NCBI GenBank assembly: GCA_019310125.1
Contig: JAFDEW010000004.1
Span: forward strand, 1-35,389
Direction: 5' to 3'
From: Deltaproteobacteria bacterium
GTDB lineage: Bacteria; Desulfobacterota; Desulfobacteria; Desulfobacterales; UBA11574
DNA: 35,389 bases
Shown: piece by piece, positions 9,537 through 35,389 of the stretch
Layout: the number at the start of each line of letters is the position of its first letter
How positions within the stretch are numbered: position 1 is the first letter of the stretch
The notes under the pieces: generated by a model
Told to the model about the DNA's origin: nothing
What the model saw: the letters and a program-made list of their open reading frames with translations, nothing else
Databases searched by the model: none
Made by a program: the position numbers and the translations under genes

Positions 9537-10439
9537 ATGACAGAAGGAATTAAAATTCTGCTTGTGGATGACGAAAAACATTTTTTGGAATCATTGACCA
9601 AGCGTTTAAAGAGGAGAAAGCAATATGTCAAGACCGCCGAAAGCGGTTCGGAGGCTTTGGCACAGATGGAAAACGAGTCATTTGATGTGATAATACTCGA
9701 TGTCAAAATGCCGGGCATGAATGGGATTGAAGTCCTGCAGAAGATAAAACGTGGGTTTCCCGATACCGAAGTCATCATGCTTACGGGCCATGCCACAATA
9801 GAATCCGGGCTTGAGGGCGTCCGTTTCGGAGCCTTTGATTACCTGATGAAGCCCACTGATATCGAAATTCTGATGGCCAAACTGGAAGCGGCATACGAGC
9901 ATAAAACCGAAAGGGAACTTAAGATTCACGATGCTGAATTTGAACGCGATCGGGGATTAATCATCGAAGAGATAACCCTGAAAGACGTAATACAGCGCGA
10001 TATCCCAAATGTTTATGCCGATACCTCACTTGCAGATGCGGTGCGAACTTTTAAGAAAAAACCGGGCGCTCCGGTTGCGGAACAGCTCTATGTAATTAAT
10101 GATTCAGAGGAACTTGTTGGAAAAGTGAGACGCAAGCATATCCTCAGGGCGGTGATCCCCATATTTCAAAAAGAAAAAATCATTACCGGGGATGATCTTA
10201 CCTGGAATGAGTTTCTCAAAAAAGGAACAGGCCCTGTGGCCACTATGCCGGTAGGCGAAATTATGAATAAGGAAGTGAAATCTTTGGGCGCTGATGCACA
10301 GATTTTAGAGACGGTGAAGTTTATGATCGATAATAATTTGGCCGTACTTCCGGTTGTGGAAGGGAAAAAATTACTGGGAACCGTTCGGATCTATGATCTC
10401 CTGTTAGTAATCAACGACATTATGGCCGAAGCGCTATAG
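9537..10439 (+). CDS. Response regulator receiver with two CBS domains
   Basis: 300 aa. Residues 1-122 are a canonical receiver with the acidic pair in LLVDDE, phospho-acceptor Asp55 in ILDVKMPG, Thr/Ser switch in LTGHAT and conserved Lys in LMKPTD. After a charged helix come two CBS motifs at about 132-205 (DVIQRDIPNVYADTSLADAV ... ELVGKVRRKHILRAV) and 230-295 (VGEIMNKEVKSLGADAQILETVKFMIDNNLAVLPVV ... LLGTVRIYDLLL). A CBS pair usually binds adenosine nucleotides, so this protein may combine phosphorylation and energy-charge signals. It has no DNA-binding domain. A strong AAAGGAGG ribosome site fixes the ATG. It is first in a unit behind sigma-54 promoter P1 and is followed 36 nt later by a kinase-like gene. 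Confidence 0.9.
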   Translation: MTEGIKILLVDDEKHFLESLTKRLKRRKQYVKTAESGSEALAQMENESFDVIILDVKMPGMNGIEVLQKIKRGFPDTEVIMLTGHATIESGLEGVRFGAFDYLMKPTDIEILMAKLEAAYEHKTERELKIHDAEFERDRGLIIEEITLKDVIQRDIPNVYADTSLADAVRTFKKKPGAPVAEQLYVINDSEELVGKVRRKHILRAVIPIFQKEKIITGDDLTWNEFLKKGTGPVATMPVGEIMNKEVKSLGADAQILETVKFMIDNNLAVLPVVEGKKLLGTVRIYDLLLVINDIMAEAL

Positions 10440-10475
10440 CCAAACGCTTGAGGCTACGCCTAAAGGAGGTAACAC

Positions 10476-11102
10476 ATGGCTGTCATAACCATTTTTGGAT
10501 TATATGCTTCAAAAAAAAGGGGGTTCGGCAAGGCCCTTGCCAAGAAGTTGAACTATGACTACGCGGACAGGGAAATAATTCGCGAGCTGTCCCGTCGCGC
10601 AAATATATCTGAAGAATATGTGGAATCTTATGAAGATGGTCGATTCACAGGACTGATGGAGATTCTTTCCAAGACCGTCAGTATGAATTTCATCAAAAGG
10701 CTTATCGGTGATAGAGCAGGGTATATAGATTCCAAGATTTACTTCAAACTGCTGGAAGAAATTGTCATTTCTCTTGCCAAAAGGGACAATATTGTTATCG
10801 TTGGACGAGGAAGCCATTGTATACTTCAGGGATATGAAAACGCATATTTTATAAAGATTAAATGTGAATGGGAAGACAGGGTCAAAACCGCCGGTAAATT
10901 ACTATCATCGCGAGTTTGCGATGTAGAAGAGTATATCCTTGAACAGGATAAAAAGGAAAAGAAATTCATGGAGTATTTTTACAACGTTGACTGGTTAGAC
11001 CCTTCACTGTTCAGCCTGGAGATAAACCTGAGCCACGTGAGTAGGGAGGAAGCCATACAACAGGTCATTGATCTGATTTCAGCCAAAAAAAATGTTGCAT
11101 AA
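10476..11102 (+). CDS. Cytidylate-kinase-like family protein
   Basis: 208 aa, related to the cytidylate kinase-like family (PF13189). Recognisable points are the N-terminal ITIFGLYASKKRGFGKALAKKL, the YADREIIRELSRRA segment typical of this family, and IVIVGRGSHCIL in the middle. The N-terminal loop is not a standard P-loop: GLYASKKRGFGK replaces a GxxGxGK[ST] pattern, so nucleotide kinase activity is doubtful and a sensing role is possible. The start is supported by AAAGGAGG, again preceded by a small hairpin (AGGC-TAC-GCCT). It is almost certainly co-transcribed with the REC-CBS gene, another nucleotide-binding candidate. Confidence 0.75.
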   Translation: MAVITIFGLYASKKRGFGKALAKKLNYDYADREIIRELSRRANISEEYVESYEDGRFTGLMEILSKTVSMNFIKRLIGDRAGYIDSKIYFKLLEEIVISLAKRDNIVIVGRGSHCILQGYENAYFIKIKCEWEDRVKTAGKLLSSRVCDVEEYILEQDKKEKKFMEYFYNVDWLDPSLFSLEINLSHVSREEAIQQVIDLISAKKNVA

Positions 11103-14943: not shown

Positions 14944-15345
14944 ATGTCGGAAAATGAGAAAAAAAAGGCCGATAAAATAAAGCTTCTGCTTGTGGATGAT
15001 GAAAAAGGTTTTGCGAACATCATTGCCAAACGGATGTCTAAACGCGGCATTGATGTCACCGAGGCCTACAGCGGGACTGAAGCGTTACAGGCCATAAGAA
15101 AGGCAGATTTTGACGTGGCCGTCCTGGATCTGAAAATGGAAGATATGGATGGAATTGAAATTCTAAAAATTTTCAAGAAAATGGACCCGGATCTTGCCGT
15201 GATTATGCTGACCGGTCATGGATCCGAAGCCGCGGCCAAAGACGGCATTAAATTCGGAGCTTTTGATTATCTTACCAAACCCTGTGATCTTGAAGAACTT
15301 CTGGAAAAAATCAGGGAGGCATATCAGCAACCCAAACAGATTTGA
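14944..15345 (+). CDS. Single-domain response regulator, variant active-site loop
   Basis: 133 aa. The receiver shows LLLVDDE, Asp62 in VLDLKMEDMDG, LTGHGS and LTKPCD. The loop after the phospho-acceptor is KMEDMDG rather than the KMPGMDG of its siblings, so the conserved Pro-Gly is absent. There is no output domain and only a short tail. The following DASS transporter starts 11 nt after its stop codon, so this receiver and the transporter are closely linked in expression. A truncated relative is preserved at 19205-19336. Confidence 0.9.
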   Translation: MSENEKKKADKIKLLLVDDEKGFANIIAKRMSKRGIDVTEAYSGTEALQAIRKADFDVAVLDLKMEDMDGIEILKIFKKMDPDLAVIMLTGHGSEAAAKDGIKFGAFDYLTKPCDLEELLEKIREAYQQPKQI

Positions 15346-15356
15346 AAGGAGAAAAA

Positions 15357-16937
15357 ATGTTTTTCAAAAGCAAACAGTTCCAACTCGGTTTAGCATTGGC
15401 ACTCGGGATTATTGTTTTTTTATTGCCCAGACCTGAAGGAACCAAATTTAAGATCACCGGTGATCAGGGGCGATTAGTGTTGCAGGACGTAGGCCAGCAC
15501 TTTACCTTAGTTCCCGCTGAAAAGGAAAAGGCCAAAGAATATATCGTGGAAGCCATACATCCCAAAAGCCCTGAATGTACGGCTCAGTTTTTAAAGGATA
15601 CGGCTGCGAAGCTAAACACAGAAGGGGTTGAGGTCGATTATATCAACGGTCTTTCGCCCAGAGGAAAACGGTTTCTGGCAGTGCTGGTGGTGCTTATTTT
15701 TCTCTTTGTGGCCGAACCCATCCCCCTGGAAATTACCGCCATTTGTATCGGCGTGTTTTTGGTGATCATGGGAATCACCGATGTCAAAGGGGCCTGGGCC
15801 CCGTATATGCATCCGGTGGTGGTTTTTATCATGTGCTGTTTAATCTTTGCCATCTCCCTGGATAAAGCCGGGATTACAAAACGGCTCGGGCATTTTATCG
15901 TCAAAAAAGCAGGAACCAGTGTGACCAAGTTCACTTTTATTATTGCCATCAGTTTAGGCATATCTTCCTCTTTTATGCATGATGCCGCGGCATGTGCCAT
16001 TGGCATTATAACCATGCTTCCGTTGATGAAGGCTGCCGGCATTGAACCGCACACAAAAACGGCCAAATTTATGATGCTGTCTCTCCCCTTTGGTTGTTCC
16101 TGCGGCGGCATGGGATCGCTGATCGGCGGGGGACGCTGTATGGTGGCGGCCGCTTTTCTCAAGGAATTTACGGGACTTGAGATTAGCTTTTTCGAATGGA
16201 TAAAGTATGCCATGCCGGCGGCTATTATTTGCGTACCTATAGCAGTTTCCATCGTTTATTTTGTGTTTCGTCCCAATCCCAAGTACAAACTGCCTGTATT
16301 TGATGAGGAAATCGGTCCCTGGACCGCCCTGGAAAAAAAGACGCTCATTATCATCGGGCTGACATTTGCTTTTTGGTTAACCAAGGGATTCCATGGGATT
16401 CACTATTCGGTTACCGGAATGTTAGGTGTTACCTTCCTGGTCCTTTTCGGCATTTTGAAATGGGAACATATTAATGATAATCTGGAATGGGGAACCGCCC
16501 TCTTTATTTTTGGCGGCGGTATTTCCCTGGGTCTGGCCATGGGCTACTCGGGAGCGGCCTCTTATTTTGCCTACCTGTTTTTCCCTCTGGTTCAAGGCGG
16601 GGGCTGGTTGTTGCTGTTTGCCGGCGTAGCCGTTTTCGGGGCTCTGGTTACCAATGCCATGGCCAACGTGGCAGCAGCAGCTCTGATCTTGCCTATTGTG
16701 ATTCCAATGGCCAGGTTGGAGGGCGTCGATCCCACGGTTATCGCGCTGTGTCTTGGAATGGCCACTTCATTTGCCATGCTTTTGGTGATCGGTTGTCCAC
16801 CCAATGCCATTGCATACAGCTATCGATATTTTAAGGCTGCGGATCTCACTAGAGTGGGACTTGTTGCCACACCGATTTTGTTGTTTGTTTTAGTGGTAGT
16901 GGCATCCACATGGTGGAAAATATTGGGGCTGGTATAA
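15357..16937 (+). CDS. DASS/SLC13-type anion transporter (first copy)
   Basis: A 526-aa inner-membrane permease. I start it at the ATG at 15357 behind AAAGGAG; the TTG used by the ORF track overlaps the upstream stop. TM1 is followed by an unusually long hydrophilic loop of about 80 residues before the standard transporter core. The core has the two-repeat layout of the divalent anion:sodium symporter family. The substrate-site SNT motifs of dicarboxylate carriers are altered (SSFMHDAAA in repeat 1, TNAMANVAA in repeat 2), while CPPNAIAYSYRYF near the end recalls the family signature. Members move sulfate, thiosulfate or carboxylates with Na+. In a sulfate reducer a sulfur oxyanion is plausible but unproven. 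It is embedded between receivers behind P2. Confidence 0.85.
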   Translation: MFFKSKQFQLGLALALGIIVFLLPRPEGTKFKITGDQGRLVLQDVGQHFTLVPAEKEKAKEYIVEAIHPKSPECTAQFLKDTAAKLNTEGVEVDYINGLSPRGKRFLAVLVVLIFLFVAEPIPLEITAICIGVFLVIMGITDVKGAWAPYMHPVVVFIMCCLIFAISLDKAGITKRLGHFIVKKAGTSVTKFTFIIAISLGISSSFMHDAAACAIGIITMLPLMKAAGIEPHTKTAKFMMLSLPFGCSCGGMGSLIGGGRCMVAAAFLKEFTGLEISFFEWIKYAMPAAIICVPIAVSIVYFVFRPNPKYKLPVFDEEIGPWTALEKKTLIIIGLTFAFWLTKGFHGIHYSVTGMLGVTFLVLFGILKWEHINDNLEWGTALFIFGGGISLGLAMGYSGAASYFAYLFFPLVQGGGWLLLFAGVAVFGALVTNAMANVAAAALILPIVIPMARLEGVDPTVIALCLGMATSFAMLLVIGCPPNAIAYSYRYFKAADLTRVGLVATPILLFVLVVVASTWWKILGLV

Positions 16938-16994: not shown

Positions 16995-17037
16995 AGATTT
17001 TAATTTGCAACCCGAAATTTTTAACAAAAAAACACAT

Positions 17038-18240
17038 ATGAAAGATATACGCCTTCTTCTTGTTGATGACGAAGATAATTTTCGACAGACTCTCGCCAAA
17101 CGCCTGGCAAAAAAGGGGATTCCTCCCGAGCAGGCCGAAAATGGAGAGAAAGCACTTTCCATTCTTGAAAAAAAAGAGATGGATGTTGTGGTGCTGGACG
17201 TTAAAATGCCCGGTATGGACGGAATCGAGGTCCTTCGCCATATCAAAAAAAAGCATCCCGGGACGGAAGTTATCTTTCTAACCGGTCATGCCGCAACTCA
17301 GGATGGTGTTGATGGAATTAAAAGGGGCGCTTTTGATTATCTCAGCAAACCCATAGAATTCGAACATCTGTTGAGTAAGATCAAACAGGCCTATGATAAG
17401 GTCGTACGGGAAGAAGAAAAGCTCCGGGAAGCCGAATTCAGGAAGAAGATGAGACAGCAAATGGCAACCACTGAAAAATTGGCTTCCCTGGGAACTCTGG
17501 CCGCCGGTGTGGCCCATGAAATTAATAATCCATTGGCCATTATCAATGAATCGGCGGGCTGGCTGAAGCTGATTATAAACAGAGAAGAAATGGCTCAAAT
17601 GCCCCGCAAGCAGGACTTTGAAATGGCCCTGAATAAAATAGAAACGGGCGTGGACAGGGCCAAGAGAATTACCCATCAGCTTTTGGGATTTGCCAAAAAG
17701 GATGATTCCGTCCTTGTTGAAATTAATCTTGGGGATCTGGCCGATGAGGCCGTACAACTGGTACACAGGGAAGCAACCAACAAGGATATTGAAATTGTTC
17801 AGGAAACACAACCTGACATCGGAACGATCTGGAGTGATCCCTACCAGTTACGGCAGGTATTGATTAACCTTTTAAACAATGCCATTCATGCCACCGGATC
17901 CGGAGGCAGAATCACCATCATAATTGAAGCGTTGAACGGAGAAATAAACCTCACCGTTCAGGATAACGGGCAGGGCATACCCAAAGAGAACCTGGATAAA
18001 ATATTCGAGCCGTTTTTCAGTACGAAATCTCCGGGTAAAGGCACGGGTTTGGGGCTGTTTGTTACGCGCGGCATTGTTGAAAAGCTGTGCGGGACTATAA
18101 AGGTGGAAAGCCGCCTAGGTCACGGAACTCGCTTTTGCATCAGGCTGCCGAGATATTGTGAAATAAAAGAGGATCTGGACCAGGATGAACGTATCCCGTT
18201 TTTGGACAATATAGCAAAACACAAAGGTTCAACCCAATAA
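17038..18240 (+). CDS. Soluble receiver-histidine kinase fusion
   Basis: 400 aa starting at the ATG 17038 (the track's 17005 is a TTG; no good ribosome site is seen for either). Residues 1-120 are a receiver with LLLVDDE, Asp54 in VLDVKMPGMDG, LTGHAA and LSKPIE. A coiled linker leads to HisKA with His160 in GTLAAGVAHEINNP, and HATPase with LINLLNNAIHA, DNGQGI and GKGTGLGL. No membrane segment or sensor domain is present, so its input is the N-terminal receiver. It could pass phosphate between the membrane kinases and the single receivers, forming the hub of the network. It may have its own sigma-70-like promoter. The next receiver gene starts 23 nt after its stop. Confidence 0.9.
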   Translation: MKDIRLLLVDDEDNFRQTLAKRLAKKGIPPEQAENGEKALSILEKKEMDVVVLDVKMPGMDGIEVLRHIKKKHPGTEVIFLTGHAATQDGVDGIKRGAFDYLSKPIEFEHLLSKIKQAYDKVVREEEKLREAEFRKKMRQQMATTEKLASLGTLAAGVAHEINNPLAIINESAGWLKLIINREEMAQMPRKQDFEMALNKIETGVDRAKRITHQLLGFAKKDDSVLVEINLGDLADEAVQLVHREATNKDIEIVQETQPDIGTIWSDPYQLRQVLINLLNNAIHATGSGGRITIIIEALNGEINLTVQDNGQGIPKENLDKIFEPFFSTKSPGKGTGLGLFVTRGIVEKLCGTIKVESRLGHGTRFCIRLPRYCEIKEDLDQDERIPFLDNIAKHKGSTQ

Positions 18241-19098: not shown

Positions 19099-19114
19099 TG
19101 GCACATTCATTGCT
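19099..19114 (+). promoter_or_regulatory. Sigma-54 promoter P3 for the TauE unit
   Basis: TGGCACATTCATTGCT is an essentially consensus -24/-12 element. The truncated receiver fragment starts 90 nt downstream and the intact receiver about 230 nt downstream. Confidence 0.88.
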
Positions 19115-19204: not shown

Positions 19205-19336
19205 ATGTCCAAAAAAAACATTGATGTAACCAAAGCATATAGCGGCACTGAGGCTTTGCAGATGCTGAGAAAAGCGAATTTTGATGTGGTGGTCCTGGAT
19301 TTGAAAATACAGGAAGCTGTTCAATCAGGGAGGTGA
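19205..19336 (+). pseudogene. Truncated response regulator fragment
   Basis: A 43-codon open frame whose translation (SKKNIDVTKAYSGTEALQ ... FDVVVLDLKI) closely matches residues 31-65 of the receiver at 14944. The matching frame extends two codons upstream of the ATG (KRM). The N-terminal LLVDDE part is missing and the frame runs out right after the phospho-acceptor strand, then stops 6 nt before the next receiver's start. Both ends are therefore deleted. It is a remnant of a duplicated receiver gene, and its region now serves as leader for the next gene. Confidence 0.8.
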
Positions 19337-19341
19337 TGGAG

Positions 19342-19755
19342 GTGAATAACTTCAATGTCCTGCTGGTCGATGATGAACTGGAATTTTTAGCGACTCTGGT
19401 AAAGCGGCTGACAAAAAGAGGACTCAATATTAGTACGGCAAAAAACGGTGAGGATGCGCTGAAAATAATCGGAGGAAAAGTGATTGATGTGGTGGTTCTG
19501 GATGTAAGGATGCCGGGTATTGGCGGCATACAGACACTAAGAGAAATCAAAAAGAAAGATCCTTTGATGGAAGTAATTATGCTGACCGGCCACGCCAGCG
19601 TAGAAGTGGCCATAGAAGGGATGGAGCTGGGCGCTTTTGATTATCTTATGAAGCCTGCTGATATTGATGAGCTATTTTACAAGCTCCAGGACGCGTTTAA
19701 GAAAAAAACAATTCAGCGAGAGAAAATCAAAAAGCTTGAGGAAATAATAAGATAG
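19342..19755 (+). CDS. Single-domain response regulator (REC)
   Basis: About 137 aa. A very strong ribosome site GGGAGGTGAT ends just before or within the upstream start candidates (GTG 19333, ATG 19336), so the GTG at 19342 with normal spacing is the better start. It is a receiver with VLLVDDE, Asp54 in VLDVRMPGIGG, LTGHAS and LMKPAD, and a charged tail (REKIKKLEEIIR). No output domain. It is the first intact gene of the P3 unit, 28 nt before the TauE-type permease. No kinase is in this unit, so its donor must be one of the kinases in neighbouring units. Confidence 0.9.
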   Translation: MNNFNVLLVDDELEFLATLVKRLTKRGLNISTAKNGEDALKIIGGKVIDVVVLDVRMPGIGGIQTLREIKKKDPLMEVIMLTGHASVEVAIEGMELGAFDYLMKPADIDELFYKLQDAFKKKTIQREKIKKLEEIIR

Positions 19756-19783: not shown

Positions 19784-21082
19784 GTGAATTTTTTTAGACA
19801 GTGGGGTCAATTTATGATGATGGGCGCAAAAGCCCATGCACGGTGGGAGATCGGTGTATCCAATACTATTTTTAGTGATAAAAAACGGCTTTTAATACTC
19901 GGTTTGCTGACCATTCCCATAATATTGGGAGGGATTGCGTTTGCAGATCAGATCGGTGGGGCCCTGCCGAATTTATTGGGCGGCAAGAAAGCTTACAGCC
20001 CTGCTTTTTACAGCACCGGTATATTTATCGTCTCGATCCTTATCGGCTTGGGCGCAGGACTGATTACCGGCTGCATCGGTGCAGGCGGGGGTTTCATAAT
20101 TGCGCCTGCTTTGATGAGCGCGGGTGTTAAAGGTATATTAGCCGTGGGGACAGACCTGTTTCATATTTTTGCAAAGGCCATCATGGGAAGTGTCATTCAT
20201 CGGAAGCTGGGGAATGTGTCCGTTGGCCTTGCAGCGGTCTTTCTGATCGGCGCTATTTTAGGCGCAACCCTCGGCGGTGTCATCAACCGCGTACTTTATG
20301 AGATCAATCCGGTGCTCAGCGACGCATTTATCACAACAGTCTATTCCCTTATGCTGGGTTTTCTTGGTACTTACGCCATGACCGACTTTCTCAGGGCAAA
20401 AAAGGCTGAACGCGGGGACTTTCATGGAAAGGATGCCGATGGCGGAAAAATAGAAGGGGTACAAATGGGAAATCTTCCCAAAAAGCTTCAGGCCATCAAT
20501 ATTCCTCCCAAAGTTAAATTTGATTTTGATCTCACACCAACCGGAAGGAGTATTTCATGGATCTTTCTGGTCTTAAGCGGCGTGCTGGTCGGACTTGCGG
20601 CCGGTATTATGGGCGTTGGCGGCGGCTTTTTAACCTTCCCGATATTTGTCTATATCTTGGGTGTTTCCTCCATGACCACGGTAGGAACAGACATTTTTCA
20701 GATTGTATTTACCGCCGGCTATGCCTCAATCAGCCAATACGCGATTTACGGGTTTATTTTTTATACCCTGGCCATGGGTATGCTGCTGGGATCCCTGGTG
20801 GGTATTCAGATCGGTGCAATTGTTACAAAGGTCGTTCCCGGTATCACGATCCGCGGTTTCTACGCCATGGCTGTCCTGGCCGGTTTTCTAAATCGTATCT
20901 TTGCATTGCCGGCCAAGCTGGGCGCCATGGATGTTATTACAATATCAAAAGGCACAGGCGCTTTCTTAGAGTCCATTGGTGTCTGGGCCTTTTTCATCGT
21001 AATTTCCGGATTCGCGATCTGGGTAATCGGTACGTTCCTTATTAATATCCGGGTGCTTAAAGGTGAGGGGATTAAATCATGA
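19784..21082 (+). CDS. TauE/SafE family anion permease
   Basis: A 432-aa polytopic membrane protein, GTG start with AAAGGAT upstream. It shows the duplicated glycine-rich motif of the TauE/SafE (former DUF81) family: GAGLITGCIGAGGGFIIAPALMSAG in the first half and GLAAGIMGVGGGFLTFPIFVYILG in the second. A hydrophilic cytoplasmic loop of about 60 residues lies between the halves, and an N-terminal extension of about 60 residues precedes the core. Family members export sulfite or sulfoacetate or take up sulfonates and other small anions; direction and substrate are not readable here. Its stop overlaps the start of the next gene in an ATGA, which indicates a two-protein unit. Confidence 0.88.
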   Translation: MNFFRQWGQFMMMGAKAHARWEIGVSNTIFSDKKRLLILGLLTIPIILGGIAFADQIGGALPNLLGGKKAYSPAFYSTGIFIVSILIGLGAGLITGCIGAGGGFIIAPALMSAGVKGILAVGTDLFHIFAKAIMGSVIHRKLGNVSVGLAAVFLIGAILGATLGGVINRVLYEINPVLSDAFITTVYSLMLGFLGTYAMTDFLRAKKAERGDFHGKDADGGKIEGVQMGNLPKKLQAINIPPKVKFDFDLTPTGRSISWIFLVLSGVLVGLAAGIMGVGGGFLTFPIFVYILGVSSMTTVGTDIFQIVFTAGYASISQYAIYGFIFYTLAMGMLLGSLVGIQIGAIVTKVVPGITIRGFYAMAVLAGFLNRIFALPAKLGAMDVITISKGTGAFLESIGVWAFFIVISGFAIWVIGTFLINIRVLKGEGIKS

Positions 21083-21765
21083 TCGAACATAAGAAAGAAT
21101 TTTATGGCGGTTTTGGATTACTAATCGGGTTTGCAGTCACATTGGGAATAATATTTTCGCCGATTTTCAAGGGCCAAAACGGTTTGCAATATTTAGACAG
21201 CCTGTACAACTCCATATCAAAAGGATCGGCCTATTACATTCAAACAGTGAAAAAAGAAACCGATACGTTTTCCGGAAAATCTGTTCAGGTGGTCATAGAC
21301 ATGGCAGACGAGGCCCGGGCACAACAGACAGCCTCTCTGTTTATGAAAGGCGGCGCACGGGTCAATGTATCCGGAACAGGTTTGAAGGTGGAGGGAGATT
21401 TGAGCAAGATCCTTTCAAACTGTCTCGCCGATGCAGACAGCATGTATATAAATGACGGTCAGACAATCTCTTCCAAATACGGATACAATGAAAGGCAAGT
21501 TCTGTTTAACTGGTGGAAAGCGCTCAAGTCCATGGACAAGGGCCTAAAAAAACAAAAGGAGTTCGAAGCAGCTAAAGTAGTATCTCAAGTTGTAAAAAAG
21601 GCGGTGGAATGTTCTTACAACTATTATAAGATCGAACCTCAGAAAATATCAGACCGGGTTGGAATTGTTATCTTTTCTCTGGTGTTTTATGTTGTCTATA
21701 CCCTCTGGTATGGTTTTTCAGTTATGTATATGTTTGAGGGGTGGGGGCTGAAGCTGGGGCACTAA
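21079..21765 (+). CDS. Membrane protein coupled to the TauE permease, unknown family
   Basis: 228 aa, not recognised. One membrane segment is at about 10-28 (FGLLIGFAVTLGIIFSPIF) and another at about 195-215 (VGIVIFSLVFYVVYTLWYGF). They enclose a hydrophilic region of about 165 residues with some alpha/beta character (SVQVVIDMADEARAQQTASLFMKGGARVNVSGTGLKVEGDL). It is translationally coupled to the permease by a 4-nt overlap, so it is a likely accessory subunit or periplasmic ligand-handling domain for it. A strong terminator follows, which closes the P3 unit here. Confidence 0.75.
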   Translation: MIEHKKEFYGGFGLLIGFAVTLGIIFSPIFKGQNGLQYLDSLYNSISKGSAYYIQTVKKETDTFSGKSVQVVIDMADEARAQQTASLFMKGGARVNVSGTGLKVEGDLSKILSNCLADADSMYINDGQTISSKYGYNERQVLFNWWKALKSMDKGLKKQKEFEAAKVVSQVVKKAVECSYNYYKIEPQKISDRVGIVIFSLVFYVVYTLWYGFSVMYMFEGWGLKLGH

Positions 21766-21964: not shown

Positions 21965-24559
21965 ATGGGCAAACTGATTAATGGTTTTAAAAAGCTTTTT
22001 ATAAAGAAGCCAAAACTGGATGCTGCTGATGTCGAAGAGCTTCGAATTGCATTTAAGGACAGGTATCACAGTTTCAAGCTCCTATTAAATGCCAACAACA
22101 GAACGCTTGAAATTATGGCCGATATTGAGAGAGCCCTTCAGGGCAAACAACCCTTTGGCATGTCCTTTGTCAGGTCAAGTTGTACGGCTGTATCTGTCAA
22201 TATCTTTAATATGATAAAAAATATAGAAAAGCTCGCCCCGGGCAAGTACGGAAAGCTCAATGACCGGTTCAATAATATCCAGCAATATATAGACCTTTTG
22301 CTATCACAGAAGAAATCCATGGAAGATGAAAGACTTATTTTATCCCTGGATACTGTAAATAAGGAAATGACCGATCTTGTGGGAAGTAAGATGGCTAATT
22401 TAGGAGAAATAAAAAACAGGCTTCAGATCAAAGTTCCCGGAGGATTTGTTATTACAGCGGCCGCCTATGAAAGATTTATAAGGGAAAACGATTTGCAGGC
22501 GGAAATAGACAGGCGCTTTCAGTCCGCCGATGTGGACAATATGGAAAGACTTTACACCCTGAGTTCAGAAATTCAGCAGCTTATTATAGCATCCGTTATT
22601 CCGGATGATCTGGCCGTTTCTATTATGCAGGCATGGAAACACTTTACATCAGAAACCGGAGATCGGACAACTCTGGCCCTGCGAAGCAGCGCTCTGGGGG
22701 AAGATACACAGGAGAGCTCATTTGCGGGTCAATATAGGAGCGAATTAAACGTAAGTATTGAAAGCATTTTCCAGGCGTATAAGGAAGTTATTGCGAGTAA
22801 ATACTCTCTTCAGGCCGTCACCTACCGATTGAACAGGGGATTTAAGGATGAAGATATTTCCATGTGTGTGGGATGCATGGCCATGGTGGATGCTGTTGCG
22901 GGTGGTGTCATGTATTCACGTAATCCCGTTGATGTGAGGGATGACTCGATTTTTATAAACGCTGCATGGGGATTGCCCAAGTCTGTTGTTGACGGTAGTG
23001 ATGCCTGTGACCTTGTTGTTGTTTCAAGAAAAGCCCCCATGGAAATTATTCATGAAGATATAAAAACCAAGAAAAGAAAATTTATCTGCTTTCCCGAAGA
23101 AGGGGTGTGCCGGATGGAGTTGACCGGAAAAACCGGAAATCTGGCCGCCATTGATAAAAATCAGGCATTAGATTTGGCAAAACTTGCGGTTAAGATTGAA
23201 GAATATTATGCAGGGCCCCAGGACATTGAATGGGCTATTGCCCAGGATGGCGCGGTTTATATCTTGCAATGCCGGCCATTGCAGCAAACGGAGATGGAAA
23301 AAAGAGATATCCCTGAATCGGCGATGGAAGCAGATCGTGAGGTCGTGATTACCAGAGGGGGAGTTACCGCAAGCCGCGGCGCAGCCTTCGGGGCAGTTTA
23401 TGTGGTTGAAAAAGGAATAGATATGCTGCGATTTCCCGAGGGTGATATCCTTGTTACACGGCAGGCACTCCCCAGATGGGCCTCCCTCTTAAATCGATCC
23501 GCTGCCGTGGTTACTGAGCAGGGCGGTTTTGCAGGACACCTTGCCAACGTGGCAAGGGAGTTCGGAGTCCCGGCACTCTTTGGGGTGTCCGGTGCTGTAG
23601 ATCGTTTGAGCCATGGAGAAATGGTGACCGTTGATGCCGATTCTCGTGTAATATATCAGGGGAAAATCGAGTCATTGCTGATAAAATCCGAGAAAAAGAA
23701 AAACCTTATGCACGGAAGCCCGGTTTATGAAAATCTAAAACAGGTAAGCAGCCTGATTTTACCCTTAAACTTGCTCAACCCGGATTCTCCTGATTTTAAT
23801 CCGTCCAACTGCAAAACTTTACATGATATTACCCGGTTTATCCATGAAAAATCTGTTCAGGAGATGTTCAAATTTGGCAAGGAACACAATTTTTCCGAAA
23901 AATCAAGCAAACAACTTTATTATAATGTGCCGATGCAGTGGTGGGTATTAAATCTGGATGACGGATTTAAAGAAGAAGTGGAGGGAAAGTATGTTACACT
24001 CGAAAATATTGTCTCTATTCCCATGCTGGCCTTCTGGGACGGGTTCACGGCTATTCCCTGGGACGGCCCCCCCGCAATTGACGGCAAGGGACTCATATCT
24101 GTCATGTTTCAGTCAACTGCTAACAGGGCCTTAACCCCTAGTGTTCGTTCAGCTTATTCCGACCGCAACTATTTTATGATCTCGAAAAATTATTGCAGCT
24201 TAAGTTCCAGGCTCGGGTATCACTTTTCCATTATGGAGGCTCTGGTCAGTGAGCGATCCATTGAAAATTACACAAGCTTCCAATTTAAGGGAGGTGCTGC
24301 AGACTATCATAGACGGCTTAAACGAGTACATTTTATCGGAGAGATATTGGAAAAACATGGTTTCAGAGTCGAAATCAATGAGGACAATCTGATTGCCCGC
24401 GTGGAGGGTCATAAAATGGATTTTATGAAAAATTACCTTGCAATTCTGGGTTACCTGACGCTCCATACCCGTCAACTCGATATGATCATGGCCAATACTG
24501 CCGCCCTGAACCATTATCGATCAAAAATCGATAATGACATTCAGACAATTCTCAACTAA
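21965..24559 (+). CDS. PEP-synthase-like dikinase with a novel C-terminal domain
   Basis: 864 aa. An N-terminal helical region of about 120 residues precedes a pyruvate-phosphate-dikinase ATP-grasp domain (about 130-440) with NLGEIKNRL, ALRSSALGEDTQESSFAGQY (238-257), GPQDIEWA (417-424) and LQCRPLQ (434-440). A PEP-utiliser mobile domain (about 470-570) carries the swivelling His525 in EQGGFAGHLANVAREFGVPALFG. The usual C-terminal TIM barrel that binds pyruvate/PEP is absent. Residues about 590-864 form a different domain that I do not recognise (NYTSFQFKGGAADYHRRLKRVHFIGEIL within it). Phosphohistidine chemistry is therefore possible, but the acceptor is unlikely to be pyruvate. It lies after a terminator, so it must have its own promoter, which I could not identify. 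It is followed by the P4 module. Confidence 0.8.
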   Translation: MGKLINGFKKLFIKKPKLDAADVEELRIAFKDRYHSFKLLLNANNRTLEIMADIERALQGKQPFGMSFVRSSCTAVSVNIFNMIKNIEKLAPGKYGKLNDRFNNIQQYIDLLLSQKKSMEDERLILSLDTVNKEMTDLVGSKMANLGEIKNRLQIKVPGGFVITAAAYERFIRENDLQAEIDRRFQSADVDNMERLYTLSSEIQQLIIASVIPDDLAVSIMQAWKHFTSETGDRTTLALRSSALGEDTQESSFAGQYRSELNVSIESIFQAYKEVIASKYSLQAVTYRLNRGFKDEDISMCVGCMAMVDAVAGGVMYSRNPVDVRDDSIFINAAWGLPKSVVDGSDACDLVVVSRKAPMEIIHEDIKTKKRKFICFPEEGVCRMELTGKTGNLAAIDKNQALDLAKLAVKIEEYYAGPQDIEWAIAQDGAVYILQCRPLQQTEMEKRDIPESAMEADREVVITRGGVTASRGAAFGAVYVVEKGIDMLRFPEGDILVTRQALPRWASLLNRSAAVVTEQGGFAGHLANVAREFGVPALFGVSGAVDRLSHGEMVTVDADSRVIYQGKIESLLIKSEKKKNLMHGSPVYENLKQVSSLILPLNLLNPDSPDFNPSNCKTLHDITRFIHEKSVQEMFKFGKEHNFSEKSSKQLYYNVPMQWWVLNLDDGFKEEVEGKYVTLENIVSIPMLAFWDGFTAIPWDGPPAIDGKGLISVMFQSTANRALTPSVRSAYSDRNYFMISKNYCSLSSRLGYHFSIMEALVSERSIENYTSFQFKGGAADYHRRLKRVHFIGEILEKHGFRVEINEDNLIARVEGHKMDFMKNYLAILGYLTLHTRQLDMIMANTAALNHYRSKIDNDIQTILN

Positions 24560-24727: not shown

Positions 24728-24743
24728 TGGCATGCCGATTGCT
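24728..24743 (+). promoter_or_regulatory. Sigma-54 promoter P4 for the HK/REC unit
   Basis: TGGCATGCCGATTGCT is a near-consensus -24/-12 element, only 39 nt before the kinase start codon, giving the shortest leader of the five units. Confidence 0.85.
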
Positions 24744-24782: not shown

Positions 24783-26471
24783 ATGATGATGCCGGATCAT
24801 TTTTCAACACTAAGGAGAGCCATTCTTACCTGTATGGTCCTGGTTCCATTAATTCCATTCATCCTGGCTCTGGGCACCGGTTATTATTATTTCACGACGT
24901 CTCTTGAGGACAGTTCCATTGAAAGCATGAAAAGAATTGTCGAAGATCACCGGCATATGATCGAGTCTTTTCTCAAAGAGCGGAAAAATGATTTAGATTT
25001 TATTATTCATTCCTATACCTTCGAAAATCTCAGTCAATCTGAAAACCTTGAAACCGTCTTTAATAATTTACAGAAAAAATCCCCGGCGTTTTTTGATCTG
25101 GGAGTTTTCAACCCGTCCGGGGTGCATGTTGCTTATCACGGGCCTTACAGTTTAAAAGGCAAGATTTATAAAGATATGCAATGGTTCAAGGAAGTGATGA
25201 AACATGGATATTATATCAGCGATATTTTTTTAGGGTATCGGCAGATACCGCATTTTGTTATTGCGGTTACCCAGGAGGAGATGGGCAAAAAGTGGGTGCT
25301 TCGGACAACCATTGATACGGTTTCATTCAATAATATTGTAAAAAGTATCCGCATCGGTAAGACCGGAGAGGCCTACATTCTGAATGCAAACGGCTTACTT
25401 CAGACAGAACCGCGTTCCGGCGGAAAACTCATGGACAAAAATCCGCACAACATCAACTATCCGTCATCCGACACCCGCACCGAAATTTTTATAAATAACA
25501 ATGTTAAAGGTGAAAAATATCTATGCACGACCACCTGGCTGCAGAATAAAAAATGGCTGGTGGTGGTCAGACAGGAAAAAGCAGATGCATTCAAAGCACT
25601 TACTTCGGCCGCTTATTTGATTATTCTCATCATGGGGGTTGGCGGGTCGGCGATCACCGTGATTGCGTTTTACCTTACGAATCGTATTGTCGGGCGCATG
25701 GAAAAAATGGATGTTGAAAAGGACCGCTTGAACCAGCAGCTCATCGGAGCGAGTCGACTTGCAGAGCTGGGTGAAATGTCGGCGGGTTTTGCTCATGAGA
25801 TTAACAATCCCCTTCAGATCATCAAAACTGAGCAATCCCTGATCCAAATGACTTTAGAGGACATGAAGAAAGCAGGCCAGCTAAAGGAATCGGAGTCTCT
25901 GGCAGAACTTGAGGATTCCATGGATCAGATCAGACTTCAGATTTCCCGGTGTTCCGAGATTACCCGGGCAATTTTAAAATTGGGCCGGCAGGACGAGCCC
26001 AAACCTCAAGATATAACCCTTAAAGATTTCATTCCGGAAATCACCGGTATGGTGGCTCAAAAGGCCATTGTCCACGGAATTTCAATCGAGCAGGATATTG
26101 CCGAAAACACGGTTCGCATACATGGAGATCCCACCCAATTCCAGCAAGTTTTAGTGAATCTTTATAACAATGCAATAGATGCGATTCTCGAACGTCATGG
26201 AACTTCGGGCGGCAAACTGATTATCAAAGCCGGGCCAAAACAAAACAACCGGGTCGAAATTATGGTCATTGACAATGGCCAAGGAATAAGTCCCGAAAAT
26301 TTGAATAGAATTTTTTCACCGTTTTTTACAACCAAATCGGTTGGGAAAGGAACGGGCTTAGGTCTTTGGATATGTTACGGTATCATCGATAATATGCGCG
26401 GCAGTATGGAGGTCAGCAGTGACGTCGGTGTCGGAACCACCGTCACCATACTGCTACCGGCAGCAGTTTAA
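24783..26471 (+). CDS. Membrane histidine kinase with Cache-like sensor
   Basis: 562 aa from the first of three consecutive ATG codons; the third (24789) has the best spacing from the ribosome site GGGAGG. TM1 (about 13-35) and TM2 (about 278-299) bracket a periplasmic sensor with WFKEVMKHGYYISDIFLGYRQIPHFVIAV and RIGKTGEAYILNANG. HisKA has His338 in GEMSAGFAHEINNP. HATPase shows LVNLYNNAIDA, DNGQGI and [10 protein letters not shown]. It is a paralogue of the kinases at 12574 and 29545. It is the first gene behind P4 and is paired with the receiver at 26785, from which it is separated by a repeat element. Confidence 0.92.
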   Translation: MMMPDHFSTLRRAILTCMVLVPLIPFILALGTGYYYFTTSLEDSSIESMKRIVEDHRHMIESFLKERKNDLDFIIHSYTFENLSQSENLETVFNNLQKKSPAFFDLGVFNPSGVHVAYHGPYSLKGKIYKDMQWFKEVMKHGYYISDIFLGYRQIPHFVIAVTQEEMGKKWVLRTTIDTVSFNNIVKSIRIGKTGEAYILNANGLLQTEPRSGGKLMDKNPHNINYPSSDTRTEIFINNNVKGEKYLCTTTWLQNKKWLVVVRQEKADAFKALTSAAYLIILIMGVGGSAITVIAFYLTNRIVGRMEKMDVEKDRLNQQLIGASRLAELGEMSAGFAHEINNPLQIIKTEQSLIQMTLEDMKKAGQLKESESLAELEDSMDQIRLQISRCSEITRAILKLGRQDEPKPQDITLKDFIPEITGMVAQKAIVHGISIEQDIAENTVRIHGDPTQFQQVLVNLYNNAIDAILERHGTSGGKLIIKAGPKQNNRVEIMVIDNGQGISPENLNRIFSPFFTTKSVGKGTGLGLWICYGIIDNMRGSMEVSSDVGVGTTVTILLPAAV

Positions 26472-26784: not shown

Positions 26785-27231
26785 ATGAAAAAAATGAGGA
26801 TGATAATAGTGGATGATGAGGAAAGGTTTTTGTCAACCATGAAAAAATTGCTTACCAAAAAAGGGTATGATGTGGTGACCGCCTCAAGCGGGGCAGAGGC
26901 ACTGGAAATAATCGGTGCTCAAAATATCCATGTGGTGATCCTTGATGTTAAAATGCCGGGCATGGATGGGAATGAAACGTTAAGGGAAATTAAAAAGCGA
27001 TTTCCATTGACCGAGGTGATCATGCTCACCGGACACGCGACCATGGAATCCGCGGTGGAAGGCTTAAAATCAGGGGCCATGGATTATTTAATGAAGCCGG
27101 CGGATCTGGATGAAATCATCAAGAAAGCAGAGGATGCTTTCGCAAAAAGACAAAACCTGGAAGAAAAAATTCGTGTGGCCCGGATGCGGAAGATAGTGAA
27201 ATCGCCGAGTGAAATTATTCAGGATTCATAG
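26785..27231 (+). CDS. Single-domain response regulator (REC)
   Basis: A 148-aa receiver with MIIVDDEE, Asp54 in ILDVKMPGMDG, LTGHAT and LMKPAD. The tail EEKIRVARMRKIVKSPSEIIQDS is similar to that of the receiver at 31376 (KIRDAKIQELIRYPSKVF). It is the second gene of the P4 unit and the likely partner of the kinase at 24783. No output domain. Confidence 0.92.
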   Translation: MKKMRMIIVDDEERFLSTMKKLLTKKGYDVVTASSGAEALEIIGAQNIHVVILDVKMPGMDGNETLREIKKRFPLTEVIMLTGHATMESAVEGLKSGAMDYLMKPADLDEIIKKAEDAFAKRQNLEEKIRVARMRKIVKSPSEIIQDS

Positions 27232-27511: not shown

Positions 27512-29146
27512 GTGAAAATTCAGACAACAAGTGCCGATGGCCGGTCCGCATTCTGGAAGAATAAGCCGGGTTATAAGCCGATTTTGTTTATTGCCGCAGC
27601 CGTGGTTTTTATTGTTATGGTTGTTATGCCGTCACCCCAAAGTATGATTGACATGGTGACAAAAGTCAGCCCTCCCGGGTATAAGCTGTCAAAGGGGTGT
27701 TCAACTATTGTTGAAACGGTTAACCAAAAGTTACGGCCCAAGGCCTTTAAAGCATCCCGTCAGGACAAGACAATAAAAGGGGAAAAACCACTGATGGATG
27801 AGAAAGGGGTGGCCCGGAATGCTAAAATTATGATTGCCATATTATTTTTAGCCGCTTTTTTATGGGGCACTGAAGCCCTGCCTCTGGGCGCCACGGACAT
27901 TATGGTGGGGGTCTTGATTTATCTTTTTGCTATCCTGCCGATTAACGAAATTTCCAGGGCGTATATGAAAGATGCCGTGTTTTTTATTTTCGGCATCCTG
28001 GCGGTAGCGGTTGGCGTTTCCAAAACCGGTCTTGACAAACGGATCGGCCTGATTCTTCTGAGCCGGATTAAGAGCGCTAAATCTTTTGCCTTTATCTTTT
28101 TTCCTCTACTGGCTATGTGTGCCGGATTTTTATCCGAACATGCCCTGGTGGCCCTCCTGATTCCCGCACTTATGGGGGTATATAAGGTTACCTGCAAAAT
28201 GCACGGCGTTAAAAAAGACCGGGCTCTGGCCATTTTTCTTTTTCTTGGGGTCTGTTTTGCGGCCAATCAAGGAGGCCCGGGGTCTCCGGCAGCGGGGGGA
28301 CGCAACGCCATTATGGTCGGCTATTTCATGGAATATGGGATGCCGATTTCTTTTTTGCAGTGGATGAAATATGGCCTGCCGTTTGTTCCGTTCATGGCGG
28401 TGGTCATCGGAGCTTACATGTATATTCTCTTTAAGCCCAAATTCAAGGTGCCGGATGTAAATCCCAGCGAAGTCGTAAAGGCTGAAGTGGCGAATATGCC
28501 TAAATTCGGAGGTCAAGAAGCCATAATGGCTATCATCTTGATCCTTTTAATCACTGGATGGATTACGCTGAGTAAAATTGCCGGTCTTGGCGGCCCCACT
28601 CTTTACGCGGTAATGGCAATGTTTGTATTCCGTATTGTCTCCTGGGATGACATCCAGGCGGGCGTGGCCTTTGATGTGGTCGGGTTGTATGCCGCCGCCT
28701 GTGCCATGGGAGTGGGTCTGAAATTTACCGGAGGCGCCCTCTGGCTGGCATCTACCTTTGTCAATTTCCTTCCGGATTTTATGACCAAAGGTGACGGCCT
28801 GATTATAGGGGTCAGTCTGCTGACCGGAACCATGACCAATTTTATGAGTGACGGTGCTACGGTTGCCGCTTTGGGACCAATCGTTCTCCCCATGGCCACA
28901 CTTGCCAATGTTAATGTTTGGAAAGTGGGGCTGGCCACCGCTTTTTCTTCCTCATTTGCGAATTTTCTGGTGGTCGGCACGCCCAACAATGCAATTGCCT
29001 TCGGCATGAGCCGGGATTTTGAAACCGGTGAAAGGTTGCTGGATGTAATGGATTTTGTTAAATACGGACTTCCGGTAACTATTCTGGCCTGGCTCGTCCT
29101 CTGGGGTTGGGCAGTCTTCGGATACTGGAAATTTTTATCCTGGTAG
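27512..29146 (+). CDS. DASS/SLC13-type anion transporter (second copy)
   Basis: A 544-aa inner-membrane permease, GTG start with AAGGAG 5 nt upstream. As in the first copy, TM1 is followed by a long hydrophilic loop (about 70 residues) before the transporter core (AKIMIAILFLAAFLWGTEALPLGATDIMVGV). The SNT substrate motifs are replaced by GFLSEHALVALL in the first repeat and TNFMSDGATVAALGPI in the second, while GTPNNAIAFGMSRDF keeps the end signature. The two DASS proteins are clearly divergent from each other, so they may carry different anions or work under different conditions. It is the first gene of the P5 unit, ahead of the frameshifted kinase and a receiver. Confidence 0.85.
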   Translation: MKIQTTSADGRSAFWKNKPGYKPILFIAAAVVFIVMVVMPSPQSMIDMVTKVSPPGYKLSKGCSTIVETVNQKLRPKAFKASRQDKTIKGEKPLMDEKGVARNAKIMIAILFLAAFLWGTEALPLGATDIMVGVLIYLFAILPINEISRAYMKDAVFFIFGILAVAVGVSKTGLDKRIGLILLSRIKSAKSFAFIFFPLLAMCAGFLSEHALVALLIPALMGVYKVTCKMHGVKKDRALAIFLFLGVCFAANQGGPGSPAAGGRNAIMVGYFMEYGMPISFLQWMKYGLPFVPFMAVVIGAYMYILFKPKFKVPDVNPSEVVKAEVANMPKFGGQEAIMAIILILLITGWITLSKIAGLGGPTLYAVMAMFVFRIVSWDDIQAGVAFDVVGLYAAACAMGVGLKFTGGALWLASTFVNFLPDFMTKGDGLIIGVSLLTGTMTNFMSDGATVAALGPIVLPMATLANVNVWKVGLATAFSSSFANFLVVGTPNNAIAFGMSRDFETGERLLDVMDFVKYGLPVTILAWLVLWGWAVFGYWKFLSW

Positions 29147-34310: not shown

Positions 34311-35389
34311 ATGAATCAAGGCTTGTCTGAAAATCAGGCAAAAATCGATGAAATTTGTATTAACACGATTCGCACCCTTTCCATGGATGCTGTTCAAAAG
34401 GCTAACTCCGGACATCCCGGTGCACCAATGGGTCTTGCTCCCGCAGGCTATGTCCTTTGGACTCGTGTGATGAAACATAATCCCAAAAATCCCGGATGGC
34501 TGGACAGGGACCGATTTGTGCTTTCAGCCGGACATGCCTCAATGCTCCTTTACAGCCTGCTTCATCTTACGGGTTATGATGTAACCCTTGATGAGATAAA
34601 AAATTTTCGTCAGTGGGGCAGTAAAACGCCGGGACATCCCGAGTTCGGTCATACTCCGGGAGTGGAAACCACAACCGGTCCTCTGGGGCAAGGCTTTGCT
34701 AATGCCGTGGGTATGGCCATGGCGGAACGGCACCTTGCGGCCCGATTTAATCGTAACGGATATGAAATTGTCGACCATTTCACCTATGTGATGTGCGGGG
34801 ACGGAGACATGATGGAAGGGCTATCTTCTGAAGCTGCATCCCTTGCCGGACATCTGGGTCTTGGCAGACTCATTTGCATTTATGATGACAATAAAATCTC
34901 AATTGAAGGGGGTACCGAGATAACCTTTACGGAAGATGTTGCCCTGCGGTTTAAGGCCTATAACTGGCATGTTCTGAAAGTTGATGATGGGAATGATAGT
35001 GATGCAATTTTCAATGCGCTTGAGAAAGCCAAAGCTGAGACCGAACGTCCGTCACTGATTGTTCTGCGAACTCATATTGCTTTTGGAAGCCCCAACAAAC
35101 AGGATACGGCCGATGCCCACGGCGCGATGCCCACGGCGCTCCGCTTGGAGAAGAAGAAGTCCGCCTGACAAAAAAAGTCCTGGGTGTTCCTGAAGAACCC
35201 TCTTTTTATATACCTGAGCAGGCGATGAATAAATTCAGAAAATGCATCGACGCAGGAAAACAAGCCGAAGCCGGGTGGCAGGAAATCTTTCAGGCTTACA
35301 GCAAAAAATATCCTGATCTGACAAAACAATGGGTTGATGCCATGAGCGGTTTTTTAACCGCGGGATGGGATGACGAGATACCCGAATTT
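34311..35389 (+). CDS. tkt: Transketolase N-terminal part, frameshifted by a 14-bp tandem duplication, cut by the window end
   Basis: ATG behind AAAAGGAG. It is a thiamine-diphosphate enzyme of the pentose phosphate pathway that transfers two-carbon ketol units between sugar phosphates. Visible motifs are [55 protein letters not shown] and the TPP/Mg site GDGDMMEG ... [10 protein letters not shown]. At residue 268 (DAHGA) a perfect 14-bp duplication shifts the frame, so the ORF ends at 35168. The other frame continues [17 protein letters not shown] ... to the window edge as normal transketolase sequence. Full-length enzymes have about 660 aa, so the gene continues beyond the window. The frameshift removes most of the enzyme if real. 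Confidence 0.9.
35112..35139 (+). repeat. Perfect 14-bp tandem duplication in transketolase
   Basis: GATGCCCACGGCGC occurs twice in direct succession (35112-35125 and 35126-35139). Deleting one copy restores the transketolase reading frame exactly at the conserved DAHG[AS]PLG segment. Confidence 0.95.

Follow-up and report, generated by a model that had tools for sequence, protein, structure and literature searches.

The C-terminal third of a PEP-synthase-like protein

This locus raises the question of what a PEP-synthase-like protein does when the part of the chain that would bind pyruvate is something else. The protein, which we call PEPSL (PEP-synthase-like phosphotransferase), is 864 aa long and is encoded at 21965..24559 on the + strand of the window, by which we mean the whole 35,389-nt stretch of DNA analysed here; it is defined by its ORF translation, by Pfam, and by 58 related loci. 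An initial annotation had given it intact ATP-grasp and phospho-His domains with the active histidine at residue 525, and the ORF coordinates, the length, and His525 all agree with our analysis. Pfam places the ATP-grasp domain at residues 137–451 (22373..23317, + strand; PPDK_N, 3.9e-93). Residues 490–560 (23432..23644, + strand; PEP-utilizers, 2.6e-19) match the phosphohistidine swivel domain, and the His525 codon at 23537-23539 (+) lies inside it. Past residue 560, Pfam returns no match above cut-off, and the PEP-utilizers_C barrel is absent. Three things go beyond the initial annotation: an N-terminal domain, linkage to a TSUP permease and a small membrane protein, and a published phenotype in Desulfovibrio.

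The AlphaFold2 model of the full-length protein has a mean pLDDT of 84. Residues 1–120 (21965..22324, + strand) form a helical domain of no known family that is conserved in the alignment and is modelled as helices at residues 20–58, 66–90, and 97–113; no reliable match to it was found in Pfam or the PDB. An HPt identity was ruled out for this domain because H35 varies among homologues. PEPSL is a single 864-aa chain, and its parts are also fused in homologues. The top whole-protein matches in NCBIfam are PEP synthase models, which score 369 bits (cut-off 598) and 352 bits (cut-off 739.75) and end near residue 590. The NCBIfam model for rifampin phosphotransferase (RPH) scores 226 bits against a cut-off of 999 and covers the ATP-grasp and swivel stretches only, and the PigC and RedH models are likewise far under their cut-offs. 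PADLOC gave no match that would indicate a defence role.

The C-terminal domain, residues 576–864 (23690..24556, + strand), is the proposed acceptor domain. The initial annotation held that it does not look like the pyruvate-binding barrel, and profile search and structure prediction of the C-terminus had been set beforehand as the test; a normal TIM barrel was not seen. Modelled alone with AlphaFold2, the domain gives a model of moderate confidence (mean pLDDT 80.5, pTM 0.68), in which two loops are poorly predicted. The predicted elements run as two helices, a sheet with mostly strand-to-strand connections, a helix, two strands, and further helices, without the eight beta/alpha repeats of a TIM barrel. 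A Foldseek search of the PDB with this model found nothing at E<=1e-3 (best 0.044, TM-score 0.14), and a search of the viral BFVD found nothing at that threshold either, so that when we speak of an unknown fold we mean one without a match in the PDB and BFVD. A profile search of PDB sequences, including those of PEP synthase, pyruvate phosphate dikinase (PPDK), and RPH, gave no meaningful match to the C-terminus, and a family search with residues 576–864 of 52 PEPSL relatives gave none above noise. Peptidase_C69 appeared in 5 of these 52 members under the cut-off (E 0.029), and we take it as noise. We conclude that PEPSL keeps the histidine-phosphorylating engine and that an unmatched C-terminal domain stands where the pyruvate-binding part would be.

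Catalytic residues and expected activity

Across the alignment of 48 full-length PEPSL homologues, which share 44–97% identity, residues K142, R240, D420, E422, Q435, R437, and H525 never vary. PEP synthase is regulated at a Thr two residues ahead of the swivel His. At this position the window PEPSL has Ala523, and among 73 family members the residue is Ala in 51 and Thr in 18. The intact, invariant ATP and His residues, together with the mostly Ala regulatory position, suggest that the window PEPSL is likely an active dikinase enzyme, though one without regulation of the PEP synthase type.

Distribution of PEPSL

The PEPSL C-terminal domain was found in 107 of 297 genomes sampled across Desulfobacterota, with up to eight copies per genome, and in 141 of the 199 genomes of Fundidesulfovibrio's family. 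A small number of MAGs with the labels Magnetobacteriaceae, Thermoanaerobaculales, and Riflebacteria have the domain as well. Open frames of PEPSL in Desulfobacterota are nearly always about 850–980 residues long. The window's own assembly has a single PEPSL copy, along with two genes (on contigs C50 and C124) that combine the ATP domain with a true PEP/pyruvate barrel and a 592-aa frame on contig C134 that carries such a barrel. Since barrel-bearing genes are present in the same genome, PEPSL is something other than the ordinary PEP/pyruvate dikinase of this cell.

Some loci depart from the usual arrangement. Three consecutive PEPSL genes (L078:4419-13068, - strand) have as neighbours a kinase and an NtrC-type regulator as well as genes for a TSUP permease and a small membrane protein, and another PEPSL (L097:5362-8640, - strand) has about 260 added C-terminal residues with a jelly-roll (LamG-like) look and no Pfam match at E<=0.001. 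A 1833-aa PEPSL fusion in L095 was dismissed, as its additional N-terminal part is a likely spurious frame without a Pfam domain. No receiver–PEPSL fusions were found in long open frames.

PEPSL lies next to a TSUP permease in a two-component array

Sulfate reducers have many TSUP permeases, mostly without an assigned function. Upstream of PEPSL in the window, all on the + strand, are a receiver-only response regulator that clusters with the other receivers of the array (19333..19755), a TSUP/TauE anion permease of 432 aa (19784..21082; PF01925, 3.8e-36), and a 228-aa membrane protein with a hydrophobic segment at each end by hydropathy (21079..21765), the last two genes overlapping by 4 bases. 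Kinases and receivers flank these three genes. A receiver–kinase hybrid (Response_reg, HisKA, HATPase_c) lies at 17005..18240 (+), a dCache histidine kinase (dCache_1, HisKA, HATPase_c) lies directly 3′ of PEPSL at 24783..26471 (+), and a second receiver-only response regulator, of receiver cluster C2, follows at 26785..27231 (+). The array also holds two DASS-type anion symporters, at 27512..29146 (+) and 15342-16937 (Na_sulph_symp, 1.8e-38 and 1.1e-49). At the start of the array, a receiver–CBS protein is followed by a Cytidylate_kin2 protein (9537-11102, + strand); cytidylate-kinase-like neighbours recur at nine PEPSL loci.

To ask how far this arrangement is shared, we counted neighbours in the 38 PEPSL loci having at least 3 kb of upstream flank. 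A TSUP gene lies <=3 kb upstream of PEPSL on the same strand in 18 of the 38; seven of these 18 are the window's nearest relatives (L001–L007), and leaving them out gives 11 of 31. The small membrane protein family is found upstream, alongside the TSUP gene, in 15 of the 38, and in roughly half of the PEPSL loci a TSUP gene is not found close by. The window's genome, 3.8 Mb in all, contains just two TauE genes that score above cut-off, and therefore the probability of the PEPSL–TSUP adjacency arising by chance is well under 1%. A kinase, receiver, or NtrC-type gene is present at 33 of the 38 loci, which extends to the family the initial annotation's placement of PEPSL inside a phosphorelay array. 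No catabolic genes were found to recur across PEPSL loci.

The window is also rich in sigma-54-type -24/-12 promoter sites, with nine against an expected 2.2, a number reached in none of 100 shuffles. The five on the + strand (9295, 11861, 19099, 24728, and 27399) all end in TTGCT and precede genes of the two-component/transporter array. One of them, TGGCACATTCATTGC at 19099..19113 (+), is an exact match 220 bp before the run of receiver, TSUP, membrane protein, and PEPSL genes, and another, a motif match at 24728-24742 (+), lies ahead of the dCache kinase. No gene for a sigma-54 activator was found in the window.

An apparent PEPSL in the Desulfovibrio nitrate cluster

Nitrate inhibition of sulfate reducers is applied against oil-field souring. 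A poorly annotated "nitrate cluster" was described in two Desulfovibrio strains (Korte et al. 2014, PMC4001038). It comprises DVU0251 (TauE-like permease), DVU0250 (hypothetical), DVU0249 (PtxB-like binding protein), DVU0248 (kinase, a pseudogene in DvH), DVU0247 (receiver, 360 bp), DVU0246 (ATP-grasp/PEP-utiliser protein), and DVU0245 (dual-specificity phosphatase) (PMC4001038). With insertions in DVU0246, DVU0247, DVU0250, or DVU0251, growth is unaffected by 100 mM nitrate, and DVU0245 mutants are still inhibited, unlike mutants of the DVU0245 counterpart in G20, which did score as nitrate-resistant (PMC4001038). On thiosulfate, the cluster mutants of G20 are slightly impaired, and Korte et al. 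proposed that the cluster functions as a leaky thiosulfate transporter (PMC4001038).

Desulfovibrionaceae genomes contain a matching arrangement, with gene order and functions as in DVU0251–DVU0245. At L071 the order is TSUP, a 203-aa membrane protein, a phosphonate-type binding protein (1.9e-56), kinase, receiver, PEPSL, and phosphatase; the receiver is 119 aa, which is exactly 360 bp, and the PEPSL is 816 aa. A relative of this PEPSL at E<=1e-170 is present in 104 of 288 genomes. The nitrate-type PEPSLs align with the window PEPSL over residues 30–862 at about 32% identity, with the invariant residues kept. Thus the counterpart of DVU0246/Dde_0604 apparently belongs to the PEPSL family, the two being equated by cluster match only, and DVU0246 has an annotated length of 2235 bp, shorter than its PEPSL counterparts. 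The window and the DVU0246 cluster share, near PEPSL, genes for TSUP permease, small membrane protein, kinase, and receiver. The DVU0246 cluster differs in its phosphonate-type binding protein and dual-specificity phosphatase, neither of which is among the window's neighbouring ORFs, and its small membrane protein has no visible resemblance to that of the window.

Because DVU0245 is the sole cluster gene after DVU0246, a polar effect is an unlikely cause of the DVU0246 phenotype. From these mutant phenotypes (Korte et al. 2014), we infer that PEPSL is needed for production or function of the TSUP permease; the nitrate phenotype could work via permease expression and not via permease activity. 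Neither the 2023 fitness paper on DvH nor the energy paper on G20 mentions the nitrate cluster in its main text.

Pseudoenzymes and phosphatase pairing

Intact nitrate-type PEPSL adjoins a dual-specificity phosphatase in 31 of 31 loci. Sixteen of the 199 genomes of Fundidesulfovibrio's family have a version of about 650 aa from which the whole swivel domain and the ATP-site residues are gone. The copies of this degenerate PEPSL that we read (L070:6178-8127 and L119–L127) stay in the TSUP cluster with the kinase and the binding protein. At the 10 degenerate loci the phosphatase is missing in all 10 and the receiver in nine, L122 being the one that retains its receiver. Seven genomes with the degenerate form have an intact PEPSL with a phosphatase at a second site (L069 and L132–L137), where no TSUP gene was found. 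As the phosphatase is present with intact PEPSL and absent with degenerate PEPSL, kinase and phosphatase travel together.

The degenerate proteins also separate the C-terminal invariants into two sets, judged from the 10 degenerate proteins against 73 other family members. None of the 10 keeps P606, C616, H620, H627, R749, G751, H753, T835, R836, D839, or M840; L601, F611, D621, R624, W699, N768, G776, G777, R787, D807, G829, and others are retained. This division, which is drawn from sequence comparison, suggests that the lost residues have to do with catalysis or the acceptor and the retained ones with the fold, and we propose that C616, H620, H627, R749, H753, R836, and D839 may line an acceptor site in the C-terminal domain. 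The degenerate form is one clade and hence represents few independent loss events. A second, separate pseudoenzyme (L088 10434-13277, - strand), in tandem with an intact copy, has lost the ATP residues and has H525 changed to R; it retains the proposed acceptor residues, which counts against the acceptor-site reading, and perhaps it cooperates with its intact neighbour. That the TSUP cluster stays conserved around the pseudoenzyme clade argues that the PEPSL C-terminal domain has some role independent of phosphotransfer.

Comparison with known systems

PEP synthase (EC 2.7.9.2) and PPDK share with PEPSL the order of ATP-grasp domain followed by swivel His. PEPSL is unlike them in that it has no PEP/pyruvate TIM barrel, its regulatory Thr is replaced, it has an additional N-terminal domain, and its context is one of transporters and signalling. 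The initial annotation had also likened PEPSL to rifampin phosphotransferase, and the part of this comparison that stands is the two-domain engine. RPH and PEPSL both join an ATP-grasp domain and a swivel His to a non-barrel third domain, but in RPH the RIF-binding domain lies between ATP-grasp and swivel with the His C-terminal, whereas in PEPSL the unmatched domain comes last (PMC4844700). Their acceptor domains have no profile match to each other, and the low NCBIfam score likewise speaks against the likeness. PpsAB, CreHI, and HpeHI aim the same engine at a non-pyruvate acceptor, but they are two-protein systems of aromatic catabolism, and PEPSL is set apart by its single chain and its context (PMC12167813). 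PTS enzyme I also has a phosphohistidine swivel domain, which feeds transport-linked phosphotransfer; unlike PEPSL, it lacks an ATP-grasp domain and draws its phosphate from PEP by way of a barrel.

What was already known is that one PEPSL family member is visible in mutant screens. None of the papers searched describes the PEPSL C-terminal domain or the clade of pseudoenzymes, and none describes the TSUP linkage or the pairing with a phosphatase.

Proposed mechanism and alternatives

We hold at an even balance the view that PEPSL, rather than being a PEP synthase, is a catalytically active phosphotransferase of the dikinase type that carries a new acceptor domain and regulates or energises a TSUP transporter. 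As the intact domains suggest, the ATP-grasp domain would phosphorylate His525 using ATP, with release of AMP and Pi. The swivel domain would bring the phosphoryl group to an acceptor near C616, H620, H627, R749, H753, R836, and D839, and this phosphotransfer would switch on or energise the TSUP permease and its small membrane partner, with the neighbouring histidine kinase and receivers in control, a step suggested by the linkage and by the published Desulfovibrio cluster mutants. In the Desulfovibrio subfamily, the dual-specificity phosphatase probably reverses the phosphotransfer. Several observations tell against this view: the mutant phenotypes come from a subfamily only about 32% identical to the window PEPSL, a TSUP gene is missing near about half of the PEPSL loci, and the window's cluster lacks the phosphatase and the binding protein. 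The candidate transport substrate is thiosulfate or another sulfur oxyanion, and the acceptor may be a protein or a small molecule. A more specific form, which we put forward tentatively and consider doubtful as it stands, is a PTS-like but ATP-run control of transport, where PEPSL governed by two-component proteins reversibly phosphorylates a component or ligand of the TSUP permease and so gates or energises sulfur oxyanion uptake, which a dedicated phosphatase would switch off in some lineages.

The main rival is that PEPSL works as a small-molecule dikinase in the style of RPH, PpsAB, or HpeHI, phosphorylating an imported compound and thereby trapping it or starting its catabolism. We think this rather unlikely; it fits the domain type and not the nitrate phenotype. 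The engine is shared and the third domain is non-barrel and of substrate-binding size, the invariant C-terminal set is rich in His, Arg, and Asp, and the known two-component dikinases work on imported aromatics (PMC12167813), but loss of DVU0246 equals loss of the permease in nitrate resistance, and a step after uptake would differ (PMC4001038). The obligate phosphatase pairing in the Desulfovibrio subfamily and the lack of recurring catabolic genes also argue against it, and the small-molecule inactivation role raised by the initial annotation found no support. A second alternative makes PEPSL a phosphodonor or sink for the adjacent receivers in an ATP-fed His-to-Asp phosphorelay, with a C-terminal domain that merely docks. 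Receivers adjoin PEPSL at most loci, and receiver and swivel domain are gone together at nine of the 10 degenerate loci; however, histidine kinases already adjoin those receivers, L122 still has its receiver, the loss of C-terminal polar residues alongside the swivel domain points to chemistry there, and the C-terminal domain is left unexplained, so we regard this alternative as improbable. Least probable by far is that PEPSL is an ordinary PEP synthase whose pyruvate-binding domain has diverged. The one attraction of this reading is that PEP synthase models are the best whole-protein NCBIfam matches, but these score far below cut-off and stop near residue 590, the barrel is absent by Pfam, by the AlphaFold2 model, and by fold search, the regulatory Thr is Ala in most members, the genome already has proper barrel-bearing dikinases, and some genomes carry up to eight PEPSL copies.

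If PEPSL does act as a phosphotransferase on a TSUP system, the dikinase superfamily would gain a new acceptor domain. Control of TSUP transporters is made directly testable by the nitrate-linked PEPSL, the proposed acceptor residues, the apparent phosphatase partner, and the natural pseudoenzyme control.

Other features of the window

A search of the window with Rfam found no structured RNA. Near the contig end, a transketolase-like ORF (34311-35168) stops at 285 aa; the gene in the same relative place at L003 is 672 aa, and the window ORF is probably truncated or frameshifted.
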